64,000 nucleotides of DNA from Anabaena sp. UHCC 0204 (lineage in GTDB: Bacteria > Cyanobacteriota > Cyanobacteriia > Cyanobacteriales > Nostocaceae): NCBI RefSeq assembly GCF_009711975.1, contig NZ_VIKW01000010.1, positions 1 through 64,000 on the forward strand, written 5' to 3'. The position numbers and the translations under genes were made by a program. The notes beneath the pieces are model-generated. The model did no database searches. It had not been told where the DNA came from and saw nothing but the letters and a program-made list of their open reading frames with translations. The number at the start of each line of letters is the position of its first letter. The first letter of the stretch is position 1. This document shows, in pieces, positions 51,902 to 55,955 of the stretch.

Positions 51902-53896
51902 ATGAATTTTAATTTACAAGCACCTTTTGTACCTACGGGTGATCAACCGCAAGCGATCGCTCAACTTTCTGCTAGTATTCAAAAAGGAAATCATTATCAA
52001 ACATTACTGGGTGCGACAGGAACAGGAAAGACATTTTCCATAGCCGCAGTCATAGAAAAAGTCGGTAAACCAACCCTAGTATTAGCACATAATAAAACAT
52101 TAGCAGCCCAGTTATGTAACGAACTGCGGGAGTTTTTTCCTAATAATGCAGTTGAGTATTTTGTCAGTTATTACGATTACTATCAACCCGAAGCATACCT
52201 ACCCGTTACTGATACTTATATAGAAAAAACATCAGCAATTAATGAAGAAATAGATATGTTACGACATTCCGCCACCCGTTCCTTATTTGAACGTCGGGAT
52301 GTGATTGTTGTCGCTTCAATTAGTTGTATTTATGGATTAGGAATGCCGGCGGAATACCTCAAAGCTGCAATTCGTTTACAACTGGGAATGGAAATTGATC
52401 CACGTCAAGTTCTACGGGATTTAACCGCAGTCCAATATACCCGCAACGACATCGAAATGGGGAGGGGGAAATTCCGAGTTCGGGGTGATGTTTTAGAAAT
52501 TTCTCCTGCTTACGAAGATAGAATTATTCGTGTAGAATTCTTTGGTGATGAAATTGATGCAATTAGATATGTAGATCCTGTTAGCGGTGAAATTCTCAAC
52601 AGTTTAGAAGCAGTAAATATCTACCCAGCCCGTCACTTTGTTACCCCCAAAGAAAGAGTAGAACTAGCTTGTGAAGATATAGCCACAGAATTAAAATACC
52701 AACAATCAACATTAGAATCAATGGGTAAATTAGTTGAAGCGCAACGCATTGATCAACGCACCCGTTATGATTTGGAAATGTTACGAGAGGTGGGATATTG
52801 TAACGGCGTAGAAAATTATTCCCGTCATTTAGCAGGAAGAGAAGCAGGAGAACCACCAGAATGTTTAGTTGATTATTTTCCTAAAGATTGGTTATTAGTT
52901 ATAGATGAATCTCATGTTAGTGTTCCCCAATTGCGAGGAATGTATAACGGAGATCAAGCTAGGAAAAAAGTATTAATAGATCATGGTTTTCGGCTTCCCA
53001 GTGCGGCGGATAATCGTCCTTTAAAAGCCGAAGAATTTTGGCAAAAAGTCAATCAATGTATTTTCGTTTCTGCGACTCCAGGAAATTGGGAATTAGAGAT
53101 TTCCGAAGAGAATATTATTGAACAAGTAATTCGACCAACGGGAGTAATTGACCCAGAAATATTTGTGCGTCCCACGGAAGGACAAATTGATGATTTATTA
53201 GGAGAAATAAAAGATCGAGTTGACCGTCAAGAAAGAACTTTAGTTACCACATTAACTAAACGCATGGCGGAAGATTTGACCGAATATTTAGAAGAAAGGG
53301 GAATTCGGATTAGATATCTGCATTCAGAAATTAATTCAATTCAAAGGATTGAAATATTACAAGATTTACGAAATGGTGTTTTTGATGTGTTAGTTGGTGT
53401 AAACCTCCTCAGAGAAGGTTTAGATTTACCCGAAGTTTCTTTAGTTGCAATTATGGACGCAGATAAAGAAGGATTTTTGCGAACTGAACGTTCTTTAATT
53501 CAAACTATCGGCCGGGCTGCGCGTCATGTTAGAGGAAAAGCAATTTTATATGCTGATAAACTAACAGGGAGTATGATTAAAGCCATTGATGAAACTGATA
53601 GAAGAAGGGGAATTCAAACTGCTTATAATAAACTGCATGGAATTACACCGCAACCAATTATTAAAAAGCAGAGTAATTCGATTTTATCATTTTTAGATGC
53701 TTCTCGGCGGTTAAATGCCACTGATTTAAAAATGGTTGATGAACATTTAGATGAATTATCTTTAGAAGATATTCCAGAGTTAATTACTTTGTTAGAGAAA
53801 CAGATGAAAGAAGCAGCGAAGAAGATGGAATTTGAAGATGCTGCAAAATTACGCGATCGCATTAAACATCTTCGAGATAAAATGTTAGGTAGATAA
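51902..53896 (+). CDS. uvrB: Excinuclease ABC subunit B
   Basis: 664 residues, full length. Walker [14 protein letters not shown] (about 38-50), DNA-binding beta-hairpin [34 protein letters not shown], helicase motif [30 protein letters not shown] and QTIGRAARH. The C-terminal UVR motif is [31 protein letters not shown]. It verifies damage and loads UvrC in nucleotide-excision repair. The last 40 bp recur at 55916-55955, which suggests its 3' end served as an integration site and was restored by the incoming DNA. Confidence 0.97.
53857..53896 (+). repeat. att-like direct repeat, copy 1 (3' end of uvrB)
   Basis: 40 bp from TCGCATTAAACATCT to the TAA of uvrB. 37 of 40 positions match 55916-55955. 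Codes for [16 protein letters not shown]. Confidence 0.85.
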
Positions 53897-53909
53897 ACTA
53901 AATTTATAA

Positions 53910-54521
53910 TTAACGCCTTACTAACTTCTTTTGCATAGCAGCATCTTGAATAACATATTTATTGCTAGTAAACACCTGAATACCTGGAACAACACTATAA
54001 TCCATATCATCAGTAATAATCTTAACTGTTCCTGCTCCTGCTTTGCTAATAGCTTCAAGCATCAGCAAATCATAACCATCAACTGCTTGAGTGGTAAATC
54101 GGTTAATAGCAGCATCAGTTGTTGCGTCATCTACTGTTAAATCAATAGGAATTGCAATTTTTTTGATTCGTCGCCAAGTAAACTGAACTTCAGCGACTAC
54201 ATTAGCTCTTTCTGTTGGATAATCATGACGGTATTTCTTAAAGTGTAAATATCCATTAGATTGAACATAAATATCATATTCTGTTTTCTCAATAATATGA
54301 GCAAGTTCAGCTAAAGTGAGTCCAGAATAAGTAAGAGTAGCTCCATTTTGGCGTGTTTTGTTGATATAGTTGGGATAATCTGTAATTTGGTAACGTTTAG
54401 CCGTAAATGCAGCATTTGTATAAGTTTGCCAAAACCAGATGTTGGTATCTACAAAGAAAATGTCACTTTGCTGTGGTATGTCAGTTGTGATATCTATGAT
54501 ATCAGCTTGAATAATTGCCAT
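53910..54521 (-). CDS. PIN-like domain nuclease of the uvrB-linked cassette
   Basis: 203 residues. PIN acidic residues can be placed: Asp25 in FFVDTNIWFW, Glu72 in LTLAELAHI, Asp148/Asp151 in AVDGYDLLML and Asp171/Asp172 in KIITDDMDY. The full set suggests an active Mg-dependent RNase or nuclease, as in VapC-type toxins, though it is longer than VapC (~130-140). It starts 3 bp after the DUF4325 stop, so it is the last gene of a three-gene operon. As the probable effector it would be held in check by the two upstream proteins (inference). Confidence 0.78.
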   Translation of the reverse strand: MAIIQADIIDITTDIPQQSDIFFVDTNIWFWQTYTNAAFTAKRYQITDYPNYINKTRQNGATLTYSGLTLAELAHIIEKTEYDIYVQSNGYLHFKKYRHDYPTERANVVAEVQFTWRRIKKIAIPIDLTVDDATTDAAINRFTTQAVDGYDLLMLEAISKAGAGTVKIITDDMDYSVVPGIQVFTSNKYVIQDAAMQKKLVRR

Positions 54522-54524
54522 ACC

Positions 54525-54872
54525 TCAAAAACTTGCAGCCATATCTGTTATCACCGTATCCACAGCATTACGATATTTTTCATCAGAGTAATAACGTTTA
54601 GCTCTAGTCATTACGTGATTAATAACATCCCAACCATCAGCATTGAGAGAGGTAAATTCAAGTAATTGATTCAACTTTTCAGATGGAATATCTTTCAACA
54701 ATTGACCAAATGCAAAATTCACAAATGGAGATGCAAAAATCTTCACTCCTGCAAAATCTAATTCCACTGTTTCATCACTTAGTAAACATGGATGAATCTG
54801 ATCATATAACCTTTGTCCACCATCAGGAGTTATGGCATACTCACCAACTATATCGTAAACTTTATACATCAT
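54525..54872 (-). CDS. STAS-like DUF4325 protein
   Basis: 115 residues. The family pattern is clear: VYDIVGEYAITPDGGQRLYDQI, ETVELDFAGVKIFASPFVNFAFGQLLKDI and LNADGWDVINHVMTRAKRYYSD. DUF4325 has a STAS-like fold and is repeatedly found next to GHKL-ATPase proteins. By analogy with anti-sigma partner switching, it may be the kinase's target or binding partner. Two adjacent ATGs (54872, 54869). Sits 18 bp after the ATPase gene and 3 bp before the PIN gene. Confidence 0.82.
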   Translation of the reverse strand: MMYKVYDIVGEYAITPDGGQRLYDQIHPCLLSDETVELDFAGVKIFASPFVNFAFGQLLKDIPSEKLNQLLEFTSLNADGWDVINHVMTRAKRYYSDEKYRNAVDTVITDMAASF

Positions 54873-54890
54873 GTCCTTATCTCCCTCTCT

Positions 54891-55805
54891 CTAGAGCTTC
54901 AGCTTCTTGAGTTTAGGAACTTCTGAAGCTAAACAATAGTATTTTTCATCACATCGAAAAGCTATATTGACTAGCGTTCCTGAAAAGTTAGTACAAATGT
55001 TTTCGTATTTAACTCTATTATCCCCTATATTGACATAGCTGTCATTACTGAAAATCATCAGACTTCCATGATTTTTTTGGACAAATTCTTGTAGTATGTG
55101 TAAGCCTTCACCCTGTCGGACACCTTGCTGCTTGGTGCTATTTCCCGGCTCAAATGCCCACTTTAAAGCCTCAATAGATGTCATTGCTGCATTTTCGGGT
55201 AAAGTACGAACACTATTAGAAATACCAATCCCAAAGTCAACCACCGTTAACTGAAGAGTACCTGAAGTAGTGTAATGTTGACCGCAGCTAAATACACCTA
55301 TAGGAGAATTGCTATGTTCAAAGGCATTAAAGTATATTTCTACAACTTTACCTGCGATCGCATTCTGTAATCCAGAACTGATATTAACCCAACCTTTACC
55401 CAGCCATTTATATCCTAAGTAGTCAGCAATGGCTATAGGGTCGTGTTGAGTATCGCTTCGATAAGGTACGGAGTTACCATCCCAAGGTTTCTGATTGTAG
55501 CCAAAATCATAGAGGAATCCATTTTGAGCCAAATTCACACGGATTTTCTCTATAAGCGTATCCCATAGGAACTTGACCTTCCCACCCCTGTATTCAAATA
55601 GACGAACTATTCCGCCTAAAAAGGCAACGCCAATGTGTCCTAAGAATGTGCAATAGTGGAAATCAATTATCAATTCTAAGCAATCTTCAGGGAGTTGCAA
55701 TATCTCATACCAGTCTTTCAAAAGCATCTCTACATGGCGCGGATAGTCTCTTATTGTATCCACATACAAAACTGGTGGTTGATTTTCGGTAATTACTAAT
55801 GACAA
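54891..55805 (-). CDS. GHKL-type ATPase (histidine-kinase-like) of the uvrB-linked cassette
   Basis: 304 residues. The N-terminal half (about 1-150) is an unrecognised sensor-like or STAS-like part (LELIIDFHYCTFLGHIGVAFLGGIVRLF). The C-terminal half is an HATPase_c domain: N box VVEIYFNAFEHS, G1 VVDFGIGISNSV and G2 QGEGLHILQEFV. No phospho-acceptor His box is seen, so it is not a normal two-component kinase and looks more like an anti-sigma-type Ser/Thr kinase or ATP-gated switch. First gene of the operon; its promoter should be in 55806-55915. Confidence 0.8.
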   Translation of the reverse strand: MSLVITENQPPVLYVDTIRDYPRHVEMLLKDWYEILQLPEDCLELIIDFHYCTFLGHIGVAFLGGIVRLFEYRGGKVKFLWDTLIEKIRVNLAQNGFLYDFGYNQKPWDGNSVPYRSDTQHDPIAIADYLGYKWLGKGWVNISSGLQNAIAGKVVEIYFNAFEHSNSPIGVFSCGQHYTTSGTLQLTVVDFGIGISNSVRTLPENAAMTSIEALKWAFEPGNSTKQQGVRQGEGLHILQEFVQKNHGSLMIFSNDSYVNIGDNRVKYENICTNFSGTLVNIAFRCDEKYYCLASEVPKLKKLKL

Positions 55806-55915
55806 AACAACTCCAAATAATTATGATTCTCTAGAATTTTGACAATTAGAGCCAATAATACTAGATTTCACAACCTCATTGGTTATTTTTAGCTAGAGTA
55901 GTATATTTTTATCCT

Positions 55916-55955
55916 TCGCATTAAACATCTGCGAGATAAAATGTTAGGAAGATAG
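55916..55955 (+). repeat. att-like direct repeat, copy 2 (displaced uvrB 3' end)
   Basis: Matches 53857-53896 at 37/40 positions. The three differences are synonymous in the uvrB frame (CTT/CTG, GGT/GGA, TAA/TAG), so this looks like the original or a donor uvrB end and not a chance repeat. Confidence 0.85.

Follow-up and report, generated by a model that had tools for sequence, protein, structure and literature searches.

The stretch of Anabaena sp. UHCC 0204 DNA analyzed here (64,000 nucleotides of contig NZ_VIKW01000010.1, hereafter the window) raises the question of why the end of a gene, which we take to be the DNA-repair gene uvrB, recurs behind three further genes, and how such an arrangement may arise. 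The gene is a 664-aa open reading frame on the plus strand (51902..53896), also found in relatives, and its last 40 bp (site copy 1, 53857-53896) are repeated in the same orientation at 55916-55955 (site copy 2), 2,059 bp downstream, with an identity of 37/40. Copy 1 is coding and copy 2 is non-coding; when both are read in the uvrB frame, the three differences (Leu CTT/CTG, Gly GGT/GGA and stop TAA/TAG) are all synonymous and the translations are identical, as had been stated in an earlier note drawn up from the letters of this DNA. The alignment was accompanied by a chance control, in which the terminal 40 bp of the 64 stop-terminated frames of at least 100 codons in the window were searched for within 12 kb: uvrB reached 37/40 and the remaining 63 frames 26/40 at most. 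That note had also considered that the repeat might belong to a broader duplication of uvrB. The identity of the two places is 0.93 in the repeat and drops to 0.23 immediately before it and to 0.40 immediately behind it, therefore no broader uvrB duplication is present here; beyond the 40 bp a weak similarity extends out to 51 bp (86%). In the window's genome just these two copies of the site were found at up to 2 mismatches.

Comparison with relatives confirmed an insertion at the uvrB end. In the complete genome of a member of the same genus (G007), a single 40-bp uvrB end is followed directly by the DNA that follows copy 2 in the window, and then by arfB. The same joint is present in a second genome (G089), which carries a further site copy 727 bp on, behind arfB. 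Copy 2 is thus the right boundary of the cassette, and the arfB-like gene of the window (55976..56389, minus strand; RF-1 domain, PF00472, 6.1e-25) lies outside it in the right flank, followed by a TPR gene assigned by domain match (56471..57094, minus strand). Among 22 compared loci, arfB stands behind uvrB or its array in nine, including two in which it begins 20 bp behind uvrB (L037, L108), and a TPR gene lies at most 9 kb behind uvrB in ten. In filled relatives the cargo between the copies is variable. Both the empty and the filled sites foreseen in the earlier note were therefore found, and a terminal direct repeat together with an empty site in relatives is what characterizes an element integrated at a gene 3' end. 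That the cassette of the window was mobilized in trans we infer. The description of the interval as a possible decayed island did not hold for the window, where all three frames are open; it fits instead several relatives with broken copies of the same operon behind uvrB.

The interval holds one operon of three genes, all on the minus strand, in the order vapK (55805-54891, 304 aa, TTG start), vapS (54872-54525, 115 aa) and vapC (54521-53910, 203 aa); as the earlier note had it, no recombinase is present, none of the three proteins matching one in domain and profile searches. VapC is a putative PIN-type toxin whose residues 3-201 match the Escherichia VapC of structure 9z7o (chain C, phmmer 1.8e-44); a profile match stands at 7.9e-61, and the top fold matches are VapC-type PIN proteins, with low Z. 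The STAS antitoxin candidate VapS belongs to DUF4325 (PF14213, 4.8e-20) and matches Escherichia VapS (9z7o_A, phmmer 7.2e-17), with the FASPF motif aligned. For VapK, a putative GHKL kinase, the PF02518 match is weak (0.0053) and under the Pfam curated cut-off, no match was obtained against the PDB at 0.01, and the N-terminus is STAS-like by eye only; its identity is supported by the gene order, by the weak GHKL match and by a homologue that is followed by a DUF4325 protein near the integrase of the Streptococcus phage Javan172 prophage (L266, 2399-3677). Judged by homology, the cassette is a vapKSC operon, that is, a DNA-damage-triggered anti-phage toxin-antitoxin system. Such an operon was recently described in Escherichia, where VapS neutralizes VapC, a phospho-mimic disrupts the VapS-VapC complex and the operon gives about 100-fold protection against one phage; in the published model, single-stranded DNA activates the kinase, which then phosphorylates the STAS antitoxin and so releases the PIN toxin during phage attack (PMC13373217). 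The window carries the same three genes in the same order, and its VapS and VapC are homologous to the crystallized pair. The VDTN motif alignment puts Asp25 of VapC opposite residue 28 of the 9z7o chain, the published catalytic Asp28, while Ser48 of VapS and Phe54 of VapK carry the published numbers, the latter by position and without alignment to the published protein. The window's operon differs in being cyanobacterial and in being carried as a cassette behind uvrB; by homology, an anti-phage function would be expected of it. In 10 of the 16 genomes of the window's genus (G000-G015), vapKSC or a fragment of it lies behind uvrB.

The window proved to be the simplest, one-cassette form of a uvrB-anchored cassette array that extends across the Nostocaceae; both this array and the vapKSC identity go beyond what the earlier note saw. 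A 30-base pattern of the site, searched with up to 2 mismatches, matched in 118 of 217 Nostocaceae genomes, with at least two copies in 52 by hand count from the listing, and the reversed pattern gave zero matches in the same 217 genomes. In the genus Nostoc/Desmonostoc, at least two copies were present in 33/53 genomes. A position-weight scan of 101 loci, in which copies were counted at a score of at least 18, yielded 194 copies; reversed sequence gave none. Every copy in the 90 uvrB-containing loci points the same way as uvrB, and 56 of these loci hold one to six cassettes. Of six copies examined outside uvrB loci, three lie beside a TPR gene, two near contig ends and one alone. The cassettes between copies number 101, are mostly 0.6-2.7 kb long and typically consist of one operon or gene. 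Those of at least 150 bp (95) fall into 45 families, of which 33 have a single member. The largest family, a Uma2 gene with 25 members, stands behind uvrB in 14 cases and behind ten other families otherwise, and in one relative (L038) a Uma2 gene precedes a vapKSC cassette bounded on two sides. A Pfam search with 20 chosen proteins from the cassette reading frames identified two ParE-type toxins, three PIN proteins, HicA, BrnT, DUF3368, two DUF5615 and DUF433, as well as GIY-YIG and T5orf172 nucleases, a ResIII-HNH protein, DUF4365, DUF2887 and others; two of the 20 had no Pfam match, and one DUF5615 and the GIY-YIG match lay just below the cut-off. At three loci (L145 8767, L147 8645, L154 8246), array ends separated from uvrB still stand beside the TPR gene, which suggests that the chromosome was broken within the array.

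The copies themselves carry traces of exchange. Upstream of the site, copies equal their own uvrB in 74% of cases at 4 bp and in 10% at 5 bp (n=72), and the position at 4 bp falls within the HIP1 octamer GCGATCGC. Left edges lie at positions -3 to 1 in 52/87 copies, which span many unrelated cassette families. In a neighbour-tracking test with 102 Nostoc copies and 1000 permutations, positions 1-3 and 6-7 of the site track the upstream cassette family (at most 4/1000 permutations) and position 40 tracks the downstream family (0/1000). Since the end positions track different neighbours, recombination takes place inside the site, with no fixed crossover point visible. Among 92 copies outside uvrB, 294 of 454 differences from the consensus are synonymous (65%) and 160 are not, against a neutral expectation of 25-32%; for the copies that close uvrB the figure is 278/342 (81%). 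This excess means that the copies outside the gene seem to have served recently as coding ends of uvrB. Nostoc copies are not more alike within an array (3.93 differences) than between genomes (3.55), so the copies of an array look like imports out of a common pool rather than products of duplication on the spot. In the window's genus, the copies directly before vapC, both those that close uvrB and those that close another unit, end in GGTAGATAA or GGAAGATAA in 8/8 cases, and both endings still read Gly-Arg-stop; the adjoining cassette thus appears to bring the last codons of uvrB. Another explanation of a repeated gene end, a chance tandem duplication of the uvrB terminus with unrelated insertions and no system behind it, could account for the longer uvrB fragments that occur where some arrays end and within 82-bp units just behind uvrB in three loci (L034, L042, L043). 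It is very improbable given the array-wide recurrence of the site, the shared edges, the reassortment of cassettes and the lack of closer similarity within arrays. The 82-bp units, one or two per genome, consist of the 40-bp site and a 42-bp piece that starts with a further uvrB fragment.

The site, its empty form, the arrays, the reassortment of cassettes and the exchange within the site are observed by the tools used. Each cassette terminates in a copy of the 40-bp uvrB end, and for the process behind the arrays we propose that a cassette would join behind uvrB by recombination inside this site. The uvrB reading frame would be kept, with its last codons supplied by the incoming cassette, and the old uvrB end would be displaced to the far side of the new cassette. 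Repeated insertion may then build arrays, and deletion between copies may empty them. The joining itself would be catalyzed by a site-specific recombinase, most likely of the tyrosine type, acting in trans. To an array built by such an enzyme we give about an even chance, and we favour it over homologous exchange alone.

Homologous recombination alone would need no dedicated enzyme to carry cassettes from strain to strain: the long uvrB homology would serve on the left, the array or the right flank on the right, and the 40-bp ends would be short stretches of homology. The first repeat-flanked cassettes would have originated by homology-facilitated illegitimate joining, in which the gene end of the donor anchors while its other end is joined closely ahead of the gene end in the recipient. 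This explanation, which we hold to be possible if somewhat doubtful, agrees with the reshuffled interior of the site, with the fact that no enzyme was found, and above all with a second locus. A gene-end scan with the 40-bp ends of 862 frames in 850 kb of the window's genome gave twelve rows that reach 33/40, among them uvrB, an ABC-2 permease gene that we assume to be wzm, and two Uma2 genes inside the wzm locus; six frames reaching this value look, on inspection by eye, like translated repeats rather than genes. Besides uvrB, wzm is the one gene in these 850 kb with the pattern. The final 88 bp of wzm are found again, at 92% identity, immediately ahead of the start codon of the ABC ATPase gene wzt, and two Uma2 genes lie between the repeats (L274, G000:C5, 2405-4429). 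In G013 a single copy of the wzm end abuts wzt, as expected of an empty site, and an empty site is implied by overlapping matches in G014. The copies differ in seven codons, five synonymously, so that donor-like, mostly synonymous differences are seen at both uvrB and wzm. The wzm repeat is by eye unrelated to the uvrB site, it is longer, and its left edge is variable. This locus speaks for docking by homology as a general route, and nothing else weighs as heavily against a single enzyme specific to uvrB. On the other hand, one left edge at uvrB is common to many unrelated families, whereas illegitimate joins should scatter, as they seemingly do at wzm, and 40 bp is short for RecA-type exchange.

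Several further observations weigh against the recombinase-built array, beginning with the layout at wzm, whose unrelated 88-bp repeat is not explained by one site-specific enzyme. Left edges fall at positions 8-9 in 21/87 copies, in part owing to a left half of variant sequence. The right edges are dispersed, with 42/87 at 40-41 and the rest at 32-79. In the Nostoc copies, position 40 is also linked, more weakly, to the upstream family (4/1000), and positions 10-37 track neither neighbour clearly, where a fixed crossover should give a clean switch. Full-length vapKSC with copies on both sides was found in only three loci (the window, L034 and L038). At L141 the vapKSC cassette is bounded by copies and broken, at L032 the contig ends before the right boundary of vapKSC, and in seven loci (L035, L036, L040, L041, L042, L044, L058) a right-hand copy was not detectable. 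Finally, no recombinase was found among the 20 chosen cassette proteins or in the window cassette, and in an array-bearing genome (G068) the three PF00589 matches all lie in short open frames of 107-126 aa.

A third possibility is that the arrays are relics of integrons, whose cassettes were once moved by IntI at attC and in which the uvrB ends would be hitch-hikers or a degenerate attI-like target. An attC-like right half lies 12-14 bp upstream of 12 copies, as compared to three occurrences elsewhere in 1.49 Mb of loci, and all five matches of a longer attC pattern fall in uvrB arrays, in four of 13 genomes searched. In G030 an intact integron integrase has sites of the same attC type at a distance of 3-7 kb, and IntI matches were obtained in 30/217 Nostocaceae genomes, ten of them over the cut-off and many broken. 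Because attC halves are enriched at the copies, integron cassettes probably entered the arrays. As the origin of the arrays themselves an integron is unlikely. An attC half accompanies a minority of junctions, the arrays in which an attC-like hairpin could be paired beside a copy number just three (L137, L130, L135), and no attC-like site is present in the window. The arrays thus lack the attC at each cassette end that marks integrons and clusters of attC sites lacking integrase (CALINs), and integron cassettes are not known to bear the end of a host gene at every junction. Moreover, a search for IntI with TIGR02249 at 1e-30 gave no match in the 16 genomes of the window's genus, nor did G000 at 1e-20. 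It follows that attC is not the shared site and that IntI is not available in the window's genus. Integrons as such are known in cyanobacteria (PMC2426708), and IntI remnants are scattered through the Nostocaceae; at the G030 locus (L170, G030:C55), attC-like sites at 300-3700 are accompanied by IntI at 6889-7851 and by short repeats that precede intI.

On its other side in the window, uvrB is flanked by another gene of defence type: just upstream lies a DndD/PbeC-like ATPase (49270-51342, minus strand; PADLOC PbeC, 1149 bits), with a small open reading frame beside it (51339-51512, minus strand). As a further side observation, the array-bearing genome G068 (4.5 Mb) has 21 resolvase-family matches compared to 1-5 in eight other genomes searched.

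Taken together with the wzm-wzt locus, the uvrB arrays could belong to an integrase-less system that docks at host gene 3' ends, with uvrB as the main and wzm-wzt as the second site, that supplies replacement ends and draws on a genus-wide pool, and in which a DNA-repair gene anchors a library of anti-phage and toxin-antitoxin genes. This wider view is put forward tentatively, at somewhat less than an even chance. If the array works as suggested, cyanobacteria possess a means, similar to integrons, of gathering and exchanging defence genes. Since what repeats in them is the end of a gene, such arrays would probably escape searches for attC. Via one anchor gene, a whole collection of small systems, toxin-antitoxin and nuclease, becomes accessible; vapKSC is placed on a carrier that looks mobile; and with the anchor and the site known, the question of an enzyme or none is directly testable. 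No account of uvrB as a docking site, or of such arrays, was found in the open-licence literature, a scope outside which most subscription papers lie.

Among known systems, islands and prophages at gene 3' ends share with the uvrB cassettes the direct repeat of the terminus, the restored frame and the empty site in a relative. They differ in that no integrase was found with the uvrB cassettes, which are mostly smaller than 3 kb and stand in tandem, up to six in a row. Nearest in behavior are CALINs and the dif modules of Acinetobacter plasmids. Like integrons and CALINs, the uvrB arrays are rows of single-operon cassettes with one anchored end, a shuffled order and a cargo rich in toxin-antitoxin genes; as in a CALIN there is no local enzyme, and an attC half is present at some junctions. 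Contrarily, the site at every counted junction is the roughly 40-bp 3' end of a host gene, most junctions are without attC, the cassette completes the anchor gene, and the window's genus has no IntI. The dif modules, which are moved by the host recombinases XerC/XerD, have pdif sites of 28 bp in alternating orientation, whereas the uvrB sites stand in one orientation, are chromosomal and form a coding gene end. In G007, which has the empty site, there was no PF00589 match at 1e-6. The Acinetobacter modules lie between short repeated sites, often encode toxin-antitoxin systems and are extensively shuffled (PMC13141974); shuffled and often toxin-antitoxin modules between short repeated sites are likewise what the uvrB arrays contain.

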